54,330 bases of DNA from an uncultured Methanobrevibacter sp. (GTDB taxonomy: Archaea; Methanobacteriota; Methanobacteria; Methanobacteriales; Methanobacteriaceae): positions 1-54,330 of the forward strand of contig NZ_CAJOKH010000023.1 of NCBI RefSeq assembly GCF_905235195.1, read 5' to 3'. The position numbers and the translations under genes were made by a program. The notes beneath the pieces were generated by a model. That model saw only the letters and a program-made list of their open reading frames with translations, was not told where the DNA came from and ran no database searches. Every line of letters begins with the position of its first letter. Within the stretch, counting starts at the first letter, position 1. This document shows positions 38,105 to 46,874 of the stretch, one piece after another.

Positions 38105-39052
38105 TCAGCACCTATAAGATTTATCACATTCTGCTTTATTATATGGTTCTCGTAGACTGATTCCCTCTAAAAATATTTGTTTTAATTCCTCATCACTTGC
38201 ACCATTTCTAATAGGATTAATTATATTAATTAAATTATCGTTTCTAAGTAAACATGGTTTAATTTTACCTGTAGGTGTAAGTCTTAGTCTTGTACATCTT
38301 TGACAGAAGTTTGTATTATCAAAAGGTTTAACAATCTCTATTTCGCCCTTACCAATAAAATATTTAGGACGATTCTGCATGTTTTTTCTAAGCTTTACTT
38401 CATCTGCTATTTTTTTTATTTCCTCTTCAATTGAACTAATATCTAAATGATGATTTTTTGAGAAACTATTATCATCACAACTTTCACTTTCCATAAGTTC
38501 AATTAATTGTAAAATAAGTCCATTATCTCGTGTGAATGTGAACATGTCCCATATTTCATCTTCATTAATACCTTTCATTAAAACCATATTAATCTTAACA
38601 GGATATATTCCATATTCCACAGCTTTAAGAATACCTTCTTTAACACCAGATAGATAATCTTTTTTGGTTAAAAATTTATATTTATCCTCATTTAAAGTAT
38701 CTAAAGAAACATTTATCCTATCTAAACCAGCATTTTTTAAATCCTGTGAATATTTTGATAAAAAAGTACCATTAGTTGTAAGTGAAATGTCTTTAAAACC
38801 TATTTGATTTAGTTTATCTACAATATCCACTATATCTTTTCTAAGTAAAGGTTCTCCTCCAGATAACCTAATCTTTTTAACCCCTAAATCCTTTGCAACC
38901 TCAGCAATTTTTGCAATTTCACTTGGAGTCATTTCGTCTTTTGATGGAATCATACCATCATGATGACAATACAAACAATTAAGATTACACCTATTGGTTA
39001 TGGACATTCTAAATGAAAGAATAGGCCTATCGTATTTATCTTTAATTACCAT
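38105..39052 (-). CDS. moaA: GTP 3',8-cyclase MoaA
   Basis: A 315-residue radical-SAM enzyme making the first intermediate of molybdopterin. The N-terminal cluster site is NRCNLNCLYCHHDG (Cys-X3-Cys-X2-Cys), followed by KIRLSGGEPLLRKDIV. The second, C-terminal cluster is FCQRC...KPC (about residues 272-292). The usual C-terminal Gly-Gly is missing here: the protein ends KAECDKSYRC. Several archaeal MoaA proteins, to my knowledge, also lack it. It lies six bases after mobB on the same strand, so the two form an operon divergent from fwd. Its product is needed by FdhA and FwdB. Confidence 0.93.
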   Translation of the reverse strand: MVIKDKYDRPILSFRMSITNRCNLNCLYCHHDGMIPSKDEMTPSEIAKIAEVAKDLGVKKIRLSGGEPLLRKDIVDIVDKLNQIGFKDISLTTNGTFLSKYSQDLKNAGLDRINVSLDTLNEDKYKFLTKKDYLSGVKEGILKAVEYGIYPVKINMVLMKGINEDEIWDMFTFTRDNGLILQLIELMESESCDDNSFSKNHHLDISSIEEEIKKIADEVKLRKNMQNRPKYFIGKGEIEIVKPFDNTNFCQRCTRLRLTPTGKIKPCLLRNDNLINIINPIRNGASDEELKQIFLEGISLREPYNKAECDKSYRC

Positions 39053-39058
39053 GTAAAC

Positions 39059-39766
39059 TTACTTCTCCTTTTTATTAATTGATATTTGTATATTGTTAAA
39101 ATCAGATGCCCCATATTCTTTAACTTTAATAGATTTTAACATTCCCATAATAGTATTTTTTATAAAAGCTTCTACAAATTCATTTAAGCCAATAACATTT
39201 CCATCTACAGATAAACTTACTTCTGCCTGTTTATTATTATCATAAGTCAGTTCATCATTAATTATTGCTTTAGCAATTGAATTGGGATCTTTGTAACCGC
39301 AATCTTTAGTATATAATGTAGGTAGTAGATCATATGCATATTTTTCTGCCTTATCAACTAAAAGATTTAAATCATCATCACTTAAATTTTTAGCATCCAC
39401 TACCTCAATTGTGTATTCATCATCTAAATCTGGAGATGTTGAAAATTTTGGATAATTATAATTTTTAAATCCTTCAATTACTACAAAATCAGGTTCATCA
39501 ATTAGTTTAATTAAAAAAAGTAATCTTTCTAAAGAAAAGCTTTCATTAATATTAAAATAAGTCCTGTTTCCAATACCTACTGTAAATCGAGACCCTGCCA
39601 TAGTATGTTTATAAGTATCTGTCCCTTCATGGTCCATTTCCATTTTATGATGAGAATGTTTTATACTGGCAACCTTATAATCCCTATTAGTTAATTCTTT
39701 AATAATACGGGAAGATAAGGAAGTTTTACCACTGTCTTTTTTACCTGCAACAGATATAATTCTCAT
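39059..39766 (-). CDS. mobB: molybdopterin-guanine dinucleotide biosynthesis protein MobB
   Basis: A 235-residue GTP-binding protein. The P-loop is VAGKKDSGKTSLSSRII (residues about 5-21), followed by VASIKHSHHKMEMDHEGTDT and MAGSRF, all typical of MobB; the Walker-B-type segment is PDFVVIEGFKNYNYPKF. The C-terminal 75 residues (from about 160) go beyond bacterial MobB and are common in archaeal versions. It supports formation of the guanine-dinucleotide pterin used by formate and formylmethanofuran dehydrogenases. GGTGG lies four bases before the ATG. First gene of the mobB-moaA operon. Confidence 0.92.
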   Translation of the reverse strand: MRIISVAGKKDSGKTSLSSRIIKELTNRDYKVASIKHSHHKMEMDHEGTDTYKHTMAGSRFTVGIGNRTYFNINESFSLERLLFLIKLIDEPDFVVIEGFKNYNYPKFSTSPDLDDEYTIEVVDAKNLSDDDLNLLVDKAEKYAYDLLPTLYTKDCGYKDPNSIAKAIINDELTYDNNKQAEVSLSVDGNVIGLNEFVEAFIKNTIMGMLKSIKVKEYGASDFNNIQISINKKEK

Positions 39767-40156
39767 ATAACCACCATAAAAAATTACAATAATTAATTTT
39801 TAAGAAGTTTAAATTTTATTTATATTCTTATTATAATTTATTTATGTATATGTTAATATAATGATTTAAATTTTTAAATTAAAATTTTAAAATTATTATA
39901 AATAATGGTTATTAGAATATTAGAAAAATGAAAAATTAGATAAAATGTTTATAATTAGTATTTTAAAATAATATAAACATTATTAGATTATAATTTAATT
40001 TACTGGCCATGATTTACCCTCAATAGAAATTTTAAAAACTACTTTAATTAAATAAAAAAGTTCAATACAAAAAAAATTATGGATAAAATTAAAAAAATAT
40101 AGGTGCATTTCAAGTGTAAATTAAAAAATTTTGAATATCTGTAAAATATCAAAAAA

Positions 40157-40175
40157 ATGTGTAGTAATAACACAT
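40157..40175. promoter_or_regulatory. palindrome site 1 of the fwd region
   Basis: ATGTGTAGTAATAACACAT: 6-bp perfect outer arms (ATGTGT/ACACAT), the same 19-bp frame as the other two sites. It lies 345 bases before the fwdH start and about 390 from mobB, so it could serve either operon. Confidence 0.6.
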
Positions 40176-40414
40176 ATATGATTAGTATTACTTATAACAG
40201 GAGAAACCATAGAAAAAAATAGATATTTTTAGGCGTAACTAAAAAATTTTTTACCAAATTTGAAAAAATAACATTTACTTAAAAATAGTTATAAAAGAAT
40301 TATATATAGTAAAAATCTGTTCTGATAAAAATTATAATATAAAATATTAAGATATTATATAAAAATTAATCATTAGTAAAATAAATAATAATAAGAAAAA
40401 TTAAAAAATTAAAA

Positions 40415-40433
40415 ATGTGTAGATACTACACAT
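40415..40433. promoter_or_regulatory. palindrome site 2 of the fwd region
   Basis: ATGTGTAGATACTACACAT: perfect 8-bp arms around ATA. A TATA-like CATATATAAA (40434-40443) directly follows, so binding here could block or help recruitment at a second, upstream promoter. Confidence 0.75.
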
Positions 40434-40470
40434 CATATATAAAGCTTTTTAAAAGTTTCCAGTGAGCATA

Positions 40471-40480
40471 TTTATATATA
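40471..40480 (+). promoter_or_regulatory. TATA box of the fwd operon
   Basis: TTTATATATA. Transcription should start about 25-30 bases on, near 40500-40505, which is inside palindrome site 3. Confidence 0.55.
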
Positions 40481-40491
40481 TACAAGAATAT

Positions 40492-40510
40492 ATGTGTAAT
40501 CAATACACAT
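40492..40510. promoter_or_regulatory. palindrome site 3, overlapping the predicted fwd transcription start
   Basis: ATGTGTAATCAATACACAT: perfect 7-bp arms. It ends just before the GGTGGAT ribosome binding site of fwdH and covers the start site predicted from the TATA box at 40471. That position implies repression when occupied. Confidence 0.75.
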
Positions 40511-40520
40511 GGTGGATAAT

Positions 40521-40976
40521 ATGCCGAAACATATTTCATCTGGACTTAAATATCTTGCTGCAGTCGAGTTAAAAAGTAGAGGTTTATCTCATAAAGAAAT
40601 TGCAGATGAATTAGATTTGGACCGTTCAACTGTATCCCACTATCTTAATGGCAGAAATCTTTCTTGGGGTTCAGTTGATGTTGCAAATACTATTGTAAAC
40701 ATGTGTCCAAAAGACTTTTTATCAATGGTGCAAGTATTATTTAATGATTTGGATAAAATACAAACAATTGTCTCCATATTAAAATCAGAACAATATAAGA
40801 CAATTGTTAGTAAATCATGTATCGGATGTGGATTATGTGTAGATTTATGTGTAATGAAAGCTATTAAATTAGACTCATTAAAAGCCAAAATAGAACCTGA
40901 TTTATGTTGCGGATGTCTTGTTTGCGAAGAAGAATGTCCAACTAGATCAATTAGAATTTTGGAGGTTAACAAATGA
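40521..40976 (+). CDS. fwdH: HTH-ferredoxin fusion protein, first gene of the fwd operon (FwdH-like)
   Basis: A 151-residue protein. Residues about 1-50 are a helix-turn-helix: LAAVELKSRGLSHKEIADEL then DRSTVSHYLNGRN. A helical linker follows (about 55-90). The C-terminus is a two-cluster ferredoxin: CIGCGLCVDLCVMKA and CCGCLVCEEECPTRS. The second half matches the small FwdH-type ferredoxin; the HTH suggests DNA binding and a redox-sensing role. The ATG at 40521 is chosen because GGTGGAT lies five bases before it; the ATG at 40509 is inside palindrome 3. Its stop overlaps the fwdF start (ATGA). The symbol follows position in the Methanothermobacter operon and is less certain than the domains. 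Confidence 0.8.
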   Translation: MPKHISSGLKYLAAVELKSRGLSHKEIADELDLDRSTVSHYLNGRNLSWGSVDVANTIVNMCPKDFLSMVQVLFNDLDKIQTIVSILKSEQYKTIVSKSCIGCGLCVDLCVMKAIKLDSLKAKIEPDLCCGCLVCEEECPTRSIRILEVNK

Positions 40977-42076
40977 TCAAAAATGAGAAAGAAATTAAAG
41001 GTAATGACTTTAATATAACAAGATCAGCAGAAGAATTACGTAAACTTTCTTTCAACGATCATGTTTGTATTGGTTGTGGAATTTGTGAATCCACTTGTCC
41101 TGTTGAAGCTATAAGTTTAGATGCTATAGCAAACATTGAACGTAAATATACAGGAACATACTTTAGTGGACATGAAAAAATTACACAAAACAATGTTTTG
41201 GAAACTAACAAAGCAGGAAAAAATACTAAAGTCACAATTGACGAAGAAAAATGTGTTCTTTGTGGAATGTGTAGTGGATTATGTCCTGCAAGTGCATTAA
41301 CCTTAACCATTGATGATGAACCAATTAAAAACATTGATGCGTACCCAAGTTACCTTGCTTATGCTGAGTGTGATGATGACGAATGTATTTACTGTGGTAA
41401 ATGTGAAATCGCATGTCCTAGAGATGCAATTACAGTAAAAAGGAATTTACCAGAAAGAGCAAAATTAGTTACTGGTGAAATTGACCCTGATAAAGACACT
41501 TGTATTTATTGTGGTGTTTGTGAAGAAATGTGTCCAGCAGATGCAATCGATGTAACTAAAACAATTGGTGAAGAAGACATTGTTATTGATACAGATAAAT
41601 GTGTTTACTGTTTAGTATGTAAAAAAGCATGTCCTGTTGAAGCAATCACTGCTGTATGTAGATTATGTCCATATGGTGAATACGATTTAGATGAAGCAGA
41701 TACAGAACTTACTGGAACCACCATTATCGACCAAGACACTTGTATTAGCTGTGGTTGGTGTGAAGGTGTATGTCCTACCGATGCTATGACAGTTAAAAAA
41801 CCATTTGAAGGAACTCTTGTTACCGACCCAGAGAAATGTGGAACCTGTGGAGCATGTGTAGACTTATGTCCATGTAATGCTTTATCATTCCCGAAAACTA
41901 ATGGACCTGGTGTAAGATCTGTCCAAATCGTATCAAATGATGATTATTGTATAAAATGTGGAGCATGTGCAAGAATCTGTCCTAATGATGCTATCGAAGT
42001 AAGTAGAACTTGTGTAAACCACACTCCTACAAGTTCAGAATCTTGGACAGACGCATTAGAAGCTTTAAAAAATTAG
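40973..42076 (+). CDS. fwdF: polyferredoxin subunit FwdF
   Basis: A 367-residue protein made of four tandem two-cluster ferredoxin units, eight [4Fe-4S] motifs in all: CIGCGICESTCP, CVLCGMCSGLCP, CIYCGKCEIACP, CIYCGVCEEMCP, CVYCLVCKKACP, CISCGWCEGVCP, CGTCGACVDLCP and CIKCGACARICP. It is the electron wire of formylmethanofuran dehydrogenase, linking the W/Mo centre to ferredoxin or heterodisulfide reductase. One motif differs (Cys-Val-Tyr-Cys-Leu-Val-Cys) and is followed by a CRLCP; the extra cysteine may complete a cluster. It overlaps fwdH by four bases, a sign of coupled translation. Confidence 0.95.
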   Translation: MIKNEKEIKGNDFNITRSAEELRKLSFNDHVCIGCGICESTCPVEAISLDAIANIERKYTGTYFSGHEKITQNNVLETNKAGKNTKVTIDEEKCVLCGMCSGLCPASALTLTIDDEPIKNIDAYPSYLAYAECDDDECIYCGKCEIACPRDAITVKRNLPERAKLVTGEIDPDKDTCIYCGVCEEMCPADAIDVTKTIGEEDIVIDTDKCVYCLVCKKACPVEAITAVCRLCPYGEYDLDEADTELTGTTIIDQDTCISCGWCEGVCPTDAMTVKKPFEGTLVTDPEKCGTCGACVDLCPCNALSFPKTNGPGVRSVQIVSNDDYCIKCGACARICPNDAIEVSRTCVNHTPTSSESWTDALEALKN

Positions 42077-42085
42077 GTGATATAA

Positions 42086-42316
42086 ATGGAACTTAAAGTA
42101 AATCAAGATAATTGTTTAGGATGTGGTGTCTGTGTTGTAGCATGTCCTATTAATGCTTCTATTAGTCCAGAAGTTGCTGGAGGACATGGTTCAAAAACAG
42201 AAGAAACTATTATGATGGTAGAAAATGGATTTATTAAATTATTTTCACCTGAAAAATGTGATGAATGCGGAACATGCCAAATGTTTTGTCCTGTAGACGC
42301 AATATGGTTAGAATAG
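42086..42316 (+). CDS. fwdG: ferredoxin subunit FwdG
   Basis: A 76-residue two-cluster ferredoxin: CLGCGVCVVACPINASIS near the start and CDECGTCQMFCPVDAIWLE at the end. A glycine-rich insertion with a run of Glu-Thr lies between. In the Fwd complex it bridges FwdB to FwdF. GGTGAT lies four bases before the ATG and the gene starts nine bases after fwdF. Length matches the family. Confidence 0.94.
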   Translation: MELKVNQDNCLGCGVCVVACPINASISPEVAGGHGSKTEETIMMVENGFIKLFSPEKCDECGTCQMFCPVDAIWLE

Positions 42317-42325
42317 GTGATATTT

Positions 42326-42882
42326 ATGCATTATGCTAATACTTATTTAGATAAACCAGTAGTTGGAGATTTAGAAGAAGCTACTACTGAAGGAACTGAA
42401 AAAGTACTCCATTGTATGTTAAACACAGGATCTGATATTTATCAAGGAGCTTGTAAGAAAAGAGGTTCAACCTTAAAAGAAGAATATAAAAATGTTTCTG
42501 GAACCTGTTACATGGACCCTAGAGATATGGCAGCTTTAGGTGTTAAAAACTGGGACACAGTTCTTGTCAAAACTGACTATGGTGAAGTTGTTGTAAATGC
42601 AGCAAAATCCAGAGATGCACCTCACAAAGGAACTGTCTTTATTTGTAAAGGACCATGGGCTAATACTGTTGTTAGTCATGAAACTTACTGTTGTTCAGAT
42701 CCAACATATAAAGGAGTTAAATGTACCGTTGAAAAAACTGACAGAAAAGTTTTATTAATGGCAGATTTAATGAGATGGGTTTACAAAAAATATGTTGATG
42801 AAACTGATGATGATGTTATTGAAAACATGGAATCATTAGGAGAATTACCTGTTTATAAAGGCCGTAAATGGGAGGAATTAAA

Positions 42883-42886
<4 letters not shown>
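42326..42886 (+). CDS. fwdD: formylmethanofuran dehydrogenase subunit D
   Basis: A 186-residue subunit with the molybdopterin dinucleotide-binding fold, which together with FwdB forms the CO2-reducing site. Here it has an N-terminal extension ([15 protein letters not shown]) before the core: [54 protein letters not shown]. The ATG at 42326 is used because GGTGAT lies four bases before it; an in-frame GTG at 42317 is inside that site. Its stop overlaps the fwdB start by four bases. Confidence 0.94.
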
Positions 42887-44259
<1,373 letters not shown>

Positions 44260-44273
44260 ATATAGGTGATTTT

Positions 44274-45998
44274 ATGGAATATATACTTAAAAATGGTATT
44301 GTTTATGATCCTGCTAATGAAGTAAATGGTGAAAAAAAGGATGTATACTTCAAAGATGGTAAAATCGTTGAAGATGTTTCTGCTGATGCTAAAGTGCTTG
44401 ACGTAACTGATAAAATAGTTATGCCAGCGGGTGTAGACACTCACGCTCACGTTGCAGGACCAAAATTAGTTTTAGGAAGATTATACAGACCAGAAGATTC
44501 AAGAAGAGGAGTAACTCAAAAAACCAAAAATGAAAGAGGAGAATCTGGATTTTCCATACCAAGTTGTCCTACAACTGGATACAGATACTCAAGAATGGGA
44601 TACGGAACTGTTTGTGAAGCAGCTATGCCTCCATTAGAAGCAAAACACACTCACGAAGAGATTTGTATTATACCTAACATTGATATAAACCCATTAACAT
44701 TATTTGGTAACAACTGGTTCATTTTAGAAATGGCTAGAGAAAATAAAATTGATGAAATGGCAGCATTTATATCTGCATGGTTAAAAATTACCAAAGGATA
44801 CGGTGTAAAAATTGTTAACCCTTGTGGTAGTGAAGCATGGGGATGGGGTATGAACGTACACGGATATGATGATAAACCACCATACTTTGACGTTACCTCA
44901 AGAGAAGTTGTAAGAGCTCTTGCAAAAGCAAATGAGAAATTAGGACTTCCACACTCTATACATATCCACCCTAATGATTTAGGACACCCAGGAAACACTA
45001 ATACTACAATTGAAACACTTGATTCACTTAAAGATATTGTTAAAAGTAATAGTAAAGCAGCATCTGTAAGGGATCAAATTGTTCACTGTACCCATATGCA
45101 ATTCCACTCCTACACTGGAACTAACTGGAGAGATGCAGGTTCTGGTGCAGAGGAAGTTGCTAAATTCTTAAACCACAACAAACATGTTACTGGAGATATT
45201 GGTCAAGTAACCTTAGATGAAACTACTACCATGACTGCAGATGCACCAATGGAATACGACTTATACCAATTATCTGGTTTAAAATGGGTTAATGCAGATA
45301 TTGAATGTGAAACTGCTGCAGGTATTATACCTTGTATCTACTCACCAAAAACCCCTGTTAGTACATTACAATGGGCTATTGGCCTTGAATTATTCTTACT
45401 TACTAAAAACCCATGGCAAATTAACTTAACTACTGACCATCCTAATGCTGGACCATTTACTAGATACCCAAGAATTATCTCTTGGTTAATGAGTGCTCCA
45501 AAAAGGATGTCTATGATTGAAAATGAAGAAGTACACAATTGGGCAGAAAAAAGAACTAGTCTTGCTACCCTTGACAGAGAATACGACTTCTATGATATTG
45601 CTACTATTACCAGAGCATCCAATGCTAAAGTACACGGTTTCACTGATAGAGGTAACTTATCTGTCGGATCTAACGCAGATATTGCAGTATACGACTTAGA
45701 ACCTAATAACTTTGATCCATCTAAAGATCCTGAAGCTGTTGAAAAAGCATTTAGCCGTGCTAAATACACAATCAAAGATGGTCAAATTATGGTTCAAGAT
45801 GGTGAAATTGTTAGTACTAAACCTTCCCAAGTTCTTTGGACTAATGTTAAAGGTATGGAAGATGAAGAAAAAGCAGTACTTGACCAAGTTATGCCATTCT
45901 TTACTCAATATTACTCAGTCAAATGGGAAAACTACAAAGTACACGACCACTTCTTATCTAACCCAATTAGGGTAGACATAGAGATGGAAGGTAAATAA
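44274..45998 (+). CDS. fwdA: formylmethanofuran dehydrogenase subunit A (amidohydrolase)
   Basis: A 574-residue amidohydrolase with a binuclear zinc site, which condenses formate with methanofuran. Metal ligands are visible: VDTHAHVAG (about residue 57), the carboxylated-lysine segment [36 protein letters not shown] and the late Asp in [10 protein letters not shown]. It has the family's start [20 protein letters not shown] and a normal length. AGGTGAT lies four bases before the ATG; the gene starts 14 bases after fwdB. Confidence 0.96.
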
Positions 45999-46007
45999 GG
46001 TGATAGT

Positions 46008-46874
46008 ATGAAAACCATTACTTTTGATGTTATAAAAAGAAACCAAATCGCTTTAGAAATGGACGAAGTTATTCCTGATAACATTTACTCCTGGGAAGCT
46101 GAAGACTTTGATAAATATGCTGTTCCTGTAGGAAACTCAAGATTCCCAATTACAGATTTCTTTGACATTACAGTAGAAGGAACTGCTGACTCTCCTGCTG
46201 AAGTTAAAATGATCTTTAATGGGGACTGTGGAAGAGTAAAATACATTGGAAACAAAATGAGTGCTGGAGAAATCATCGTTAACGGTGATGCAGATTTACA
46301 CGTTGGTGCTGAAATGTCTGGTGGAGCAATTACTGTACACGGTAACTGTGAAGCACATGCAGGACGTGAAATGACTGGAGGTACTCTCGAAATTTTCGGT
46401 AACACCAAAGAATTTACTGGTGCTTCTTACATTGGTGAATGGAGAGGTATGAGAGGCGGAAAAATTACCGTCCATGGAAACGCAGGAAAACAATGTGGTG
46501 AATGTTTAGTTGGTGGACATATCCATGTTAAAGGTGACTGTGATATTCTTGCAGGTATCCACATGAGAAAAGGTCTTATTGAAATTGATGGAAATGTAAA
46601 CCGTTGGCCGGGTGGACAAATGAAAAACGGTAACATTATCATCCGTGGAAGACTTGGAAGATTACTTGAAGGTTTCGTAGAAGAAGGAATCGTTACTAAC
46701 CCTGTTGTAAATGGTATAGAATTTGAAGGTACATTTATTCAATATAAAGGAGATATTGCACTTAAAGGTAAAGGCCATTTATACATCGATGCAGAGAAAA
46801 ACAGAGATAAATTATCTGCATGGGAAGATGAAGATGATGAATACATCTCCCTTGGTGACAACAGATTAAGGTAA
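46008..46874 (+). CDS. fwdC: formylmethanofuran dehydrogenase subunit C
   Basis: A 288-residue subunit made mostly of a right-handed parallel beta-helix of Gly-x-Gly-type repeats: [77 protein letters not shown]. The fold is related to the alpha-subunit of glutamate synthase. In the complex it scaffolds FwdA and FwdB. GGTGAT lies four bases before the ATG, nine bases after fwdA. Last gene of the operon, followed by a strong hairpin terminator. Confidence 0.95.

Follow-up and report, generated by a model that had tools for sequence, protein, structure and literature searches.

Formylmethanofuran dehydrogenase is the first CO2-reducing enzyme of methane formation and commits CO2 to methane. The closest described regulator of such an enzyme is Tfx, a helix-turn-helix (HTH) protein encoded beside a formylmethanofuran dehydrogenase operon, which binds near the promoter of this operon (PMC3087415, PMC10570040). 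The control of fmdECB by Tfx in Methanothermobacter (MTH916) and the locus analyzed here have in common an HTH protein placed by a formylmethanofuran dehydrogenase operon. However, the protein in our case, FwdH, carries ferredoxin clusters and gave no match to the Tfx domain (TFX_C, PF14601) in a domain search, and its target would be fwd and not fmd.

Another related system is C.Esp1396I, a small HTH dimer that binds with strong cooperativity to several related palindromes, which precede the genes under its control (PMC3758141). The likeness to FwdH is a weak profile similarity in the HTH part (E about 0.01-0.04). In C proteins the sites OL and OR are adjacent and made of GAC half-sites, whereas the fwd sites lie 77-80 and ~260 bp apart and have TGTGTA arms; furthermore, C proteins are without Fe-S clusters, unlike FwdH. 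Archaeal regulators of the SurR and MsvR type exert a redox-responsive HTH control of energy metabolism via thiol switches, and differ from FwdH in having these switches instead of a ferredoxin-type domain, as well as in their operators. Molybdate regulators of the ModE type would tie the supply of molybdenum or tungsten to both fwd and mobB-moaA, but no site with at most one mismatch was present near modE (14 neighbourhoods), and a ModE-like protein persists in genomes without fwd. As the original prediction had supposed, we found no account of this operator in the open-access papers searched; a mapped transcription start may exist in the subscription literature.

Palindromes and genes of the fwd region

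The window, that is, the whole stretch of 54,330 nucleotides analyzed, comes from an uncultured Methanobrevibacter sp. and carries the operon fwdH-F-G-D-B-A-C, with mobB-moaA in divergent orientation. Gene names were taken from NCBIfam models, several of them above cut-off. The features of the region are the following:

38105-39052, minus strand: moaA, molybdenum/tungsten cofactor synthesis
39059-39766, minus strand: mobB, divergent
40157-40175, no strand: distal palindrome D, ATGTGTAGTAATAACACAT, arms of 6 bp
40227-40244, no strand: second inverted repeat near D, TTTTAGGCGTAACTAAAA, iron-box-like
40415-40433, no strand: middle palindrome M, ATGTGTAGATACTACACAT, arms of 8 bp, ending 2 bp before TATA1
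40436-40442, plus strand: TATA1 (TATATAA), likely the main promoter element, at a fixed distance from M in the M-anchored profile of 62 genomes
40471-40483, plus strand: TATA2-like AT-rich element, the choice of the original prediction, more weakly conserved
40492-40510, no strand: proximal palindrome P, ATGTGTAATCAATACACAT, arms of 7 bp
40511-40515, plus strand: ribosome-binding site GGTGG of fwdH, immediately 3' of P, conserved
40521-40976, plus strand: fwdH, N-terminal HTH and two [4Fe-4S] ferredoxin motifs, candidate regulator
40973-42076, plus strand: fwdF, polyferredoxin (NF042909 above cut-off)
42086-42316, plus strand: fwdG-like ferredoxin of 76 aa, named by position and Cys motifs
42317-42886, plus strand: fwdD (NF042908 below cut-off)
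42868-44259, plus strand: fwdB, catalytic subunit (TIGR03129 above cut-off)
44274-45998, plus strand: fwdA (TIGR03121 above cut-off)
46008-46874, plus strand: fwdC (TIGR03122 above cut-off)

Since the tungsten-specific models for FwdA and FwdC, and also the one for FwdD, stayed below cut-off, the metal of the enzyme may be either tungsten or molybdenum.

The motif ATGTGT-N7-ACACAT was verified at 40157, 40415 and 40492, each copy being 19 bp long with the arm lengths of 6, 8 and 7 bp that had been reported for it. Its predicted absence from the rest of the window extends to the genome (1,891,568 bases), where these three exact copies are the total; the motif is thus not scattered, its exact copies being confined to the fwd control region. 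The next best are four genomic sites with one mismatch, two of them in coding sequence. When the genome was scanned with a fuller consensus, TGTGTAGT-N-ACTACACA, which had been derived from relatives, the palindromes D, M and P were the top three (1, 2 and 2 mismatches), and the remaining sites, with 3, mark a step to background. The clustering is also beyond chance, as had been claimed: when 39767-40520 was shuffled 20,000 times with dinucleotides preserved, not one exact copy arose. A wide regulon in this genome was rejected because the other sites are single matches at background level. Small open reading frames between D and M were likewise discarded, being only fragments of at most 41 aa.

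Conservation of the sites and of the promoter

The region was compared in 62 genomes from four families, and a site was scored as present with at most three mismatches. By this measure M was kept in 57 of the 62 genomes and P in 48, against ~0.3 expected in each case. The distance upstream of the fwdH start is 27-31 bp for P and 104-109 bp for M, and the M-P spacing is 77-80 bp in the four families. In seven genera D precedes fwdH by ~350-390 bp; as its distance to M varies from ~244 to 282 bp across relatives, no fixed helical phase is kept, and D was rejected as a DNA-loop anchor of that kind. Among the matches listed for exact TGTGTA-N5-TACACA in the phylum, 66 of 75 lie at most 450 bp upstream of fwdH, where they occupy three tight positions, and two further exact matches (G077) resemble the same promoter interrupted by a contig end. 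Two of the comparison genomes are presumably those of Methanothermobacter thermautotrophicus and Methanothermus fervidus; both present the M-P module, with exact P arms in the former and with M and P degenerate in the latter. In some genomes (e.g. L039 and L105) M and P are strongly degraded. The same palindromes at the same spacing are kept across nearly the whole class Methanobacteria. There is thus strong support for the motif as an fwd operator, since it is neither scattered through the genome nor absent from relatives.

The M-anchored profile of the 62 genomes presented a strongly conserved TATATAA a few bp 3' of M, a conserved TTT ~10 bp beyond it, and a conserved TAGTAG where the start site is expected. 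This conservation, together with the weaker one of the element at 40471, favours TATA1 as the main promoter. The middle copy does adjoin a TATA-like element, namely TATA1, which starts 2 bp past M at a conserved spacing. From TATA1 the transcription start is predicted near 40461-40467, and with its favoured use M would border the TATA box on the side recognized by TFB, while P would fall within the leader, ~27-45 bp downstream of the start. The original placement of P over the transcription start needs TATA2 (40471) and lost ground, as the comparative data favour TATA1 (40436). Regarding translation, the ATG at 40509, inside P, was rejected as the fwdH start codon in favour of the conserved ATG at 40521 with GGTGG at 40511: the proteins of relatives begin with MPxH, and GGTGA or GGTGG follows right after P.

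In some Methanobrevibacter relatives the same operator is also present 42-126 bp upstream of the mobB start. In G096 the gap between mobB and fwdH is widened and each gene retains its own perfect copy; in G084 and G098 two extra genes lie between mobB and fwdH, with sites kept on both sides and, on the mobB side, a pair at -126 and -76. These separate copies suggest that mobB-moaA is a second target in these three genomes and that D belongs to fwdH itself. D as an operator of mobB alone was rejected, because it stays at ~-350 from fwdH where mobB is distant or has its own copy. In the window, ~390 bp separate D from mobB, which it does not necessarily control. In two Methanobrevibacter-type genomes (L125, 3314-4534; L126, 892-2112) a two-gene ferredoxin/polyferredoxin cassette has been inserted between mobB and fwdH.

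FwdH as candidate regulator and alternative readings

As candidate binders we compared FwdH, the ModE-like protein and Tfx. The latter was rejected, as it is absent from all family-f1 genomes searched. FwdH presents an HTH_3 match above cut-off, and its recognition helix, RST(V/I)SHYLNGRN, is almost invariant in 63 sequences from four families. It also has two CxxCxxCxxxC motifs with invariant cysteines. In its AlphaFold (AF2) model (pLDDT 90.9 for the whole protein and 95.1 for the HTH part) the helices are arranged as an HTH and the second half is ferredoxin-like. Compared with known structures, the HTH profile gave weak matches to small lambda-repressor-like DNA binders, C.Esp1396I included, with PDB E-values from 4e-5 (a designed binder) to 0.04. 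A Foldseek search with FwdH gave no significant match, the best ones for the whole protein being ferredoxin domains. The Protein Data Bank contained no full-length match to FwdH, although Fwd complexes have been solved; the FwdG and FwdF chains match it through the ferredoxin part only. The palindrome is repeated in the promoter of fwdH, the candidate regulator's own gene, at positions conserved across relatives beyond chance, as looked for under autoregulation. In genus g3, three genomes have retained fwd genes but not fwdH, and the ~5 kb upstream of these genes contain no site; it should be noted that fwdH is the gene behind the site, so that the absences of FwdH and of the site are confounded, which limits what this case can tell. 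FwdH is the best candidate binder of the palindromes.

We consider it fairly probable that the palindromes are the operators of one dedicated fwd regulator, most likely FwdH, and that binding most likely represses. Repression is presumed from position: M touches TATA1 on the side recognized by TFB, and P falls at the beginning of the transcript, or over the start should TATA2 be the element used. FwdH, presumably as a dimer, would bind TGTGTAGT-N-ACTACACA; at M and at P it would hinder TFB/TBP and the polymerase. In this way FwdH could tune its own operon to the redox state of ferredoxin or to the supply of Fe-S clusters; such feedback would act on genes whose proteins draw electrons from ferredoxin and contain many Fe-S clusters. 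What we observe are the sites with their spacing, conservation and exclusivity, together with the regulator-like build of FwdH; the binder and its dimeric state, the sign of the control, the signal and any looping or cooperativity are inferred. The original suggestion of cooperative repression stays a conjecture, as M and P do not adjoin but are 77-80 bp apart, and several genera lack D. If confirmed, the CO2 commitment step would gain a defined operator together with a named regulator candidate across Methanobacteria, gut and rumen Methanobrevibacter included; fwdH, now listed as an enzyme subunit, would become an Fe-S regulator. How hydrogenotrophic methanogenesis is controlled at its first step could then be tested directly.

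The same regulator could act with the opposite sign, the operators mainly activating and M recruiting TFB/TBP, a reading that overlaps with the other alternatives as to the binder. Archaeal activators are known to act directly upstream of the TATA box, where M is located, and M is the most widely conserved site; P, however, would come after the start that TATA1 predicts, as is typical of repressor sites, and we hold a mainly activating role to be possible but on the unlikely side. Both signs may also be combined, M activating while P represses, by analogy with C proteins.

That a ModE-like winged-HTH protein, the main rival of FwdH, binds the sites, reads molybdate or tungstate and controls both fwd and mobB-moaA seems to us unlikely. 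Such a protein is present in nearly all genomes with the site, the site before mobB-moaA in several Methanobrevibacter fits a metal control, and the g3 genomes lack a strong ModE-like match as well as the site. However, a strong ModE-like protein persists in two genomes (G010 and G015) where fwdB, fwdH and moaA were not detected; exact sites are missing from G015 and limited to a single isolated match in G010. In addition, modE itself is without a neighbouring site, as mentioned above. The ModE of Escherichia coli reads a different palindrome, with TATATA arms.

We give little credit to the reading in which a different HTH protein binds and FwdH is an electron-carrying subunit with a leftover HTH. 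FwdH is indeed counted with the enzyme subunits, and in the open-access literature it was found only as such a listed subunit (PMC3087415), but unless it binds DNA, it is difficult to see why its recognition helix should be nearly invariant in four families.

P could fold a short hairpin just 5' of the ribosome-binding site, but palindromes acting as RNA hairpins or leader translation elements are very improbable and were rejected: M and D are upstream of the promoter, the leader matched no Rfam family, the arms of P are not kept paired (several genomes lose the left arm and keep the right one), and an insertion of ~190 bp between P and the ribosome-binding site in G020 leaves the M-P module unchanged, which indicates that P is not tied to translation.

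Neighbourhood of the distal site

The inverted repeat TTTTAGGCGTAACTAAAA near D is a copy of the palindrome TTTTAGGY-NN-RCCTAAAA, which occurs 5-13 times per genome, also before feoAB and a rubrerythrin gene, and is probably a DtxR-type iron box. Under autoregulation by FwdH, D would be an auxiliary site near this iron-box-like repeat, and in some Methanobrevibacter the same site would also serve the divergent mobB-moaA. Only tentatively can this be extended to FwdH as a ferredoxin-like Fe-S transcription factor whose signal is the redox state of the cell's ferredoxin pool and which feeds back via the three operators on the CO2-fixing, ferredoxin-spending enzyme. On this view D would, in addition, bring in the iron status and, in Methanobrevibacter, the synthesis of the tungsten/molybdenum cofactor.

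Other arrangements around D were observed in relatives. In one Methanobrevibacter genus the iron-box-like repeat directly adjoins D. Genus g10 (L038, L040, L041, L116 and L118) carries two D-type sites 24 bp apart, followed by the conserved block ACATATTGGAGATATAATT, and L117 (G073) has three tandem D-like sites, at ~-408 to -350 from fwdH, beside an iron-box-like repeat. Finally, conserved GTAATAC/GTATTAC repeats are present near D in many relatives, 40-90 bp downstream of it in L106-L121 and at 40184-40190 in the window.
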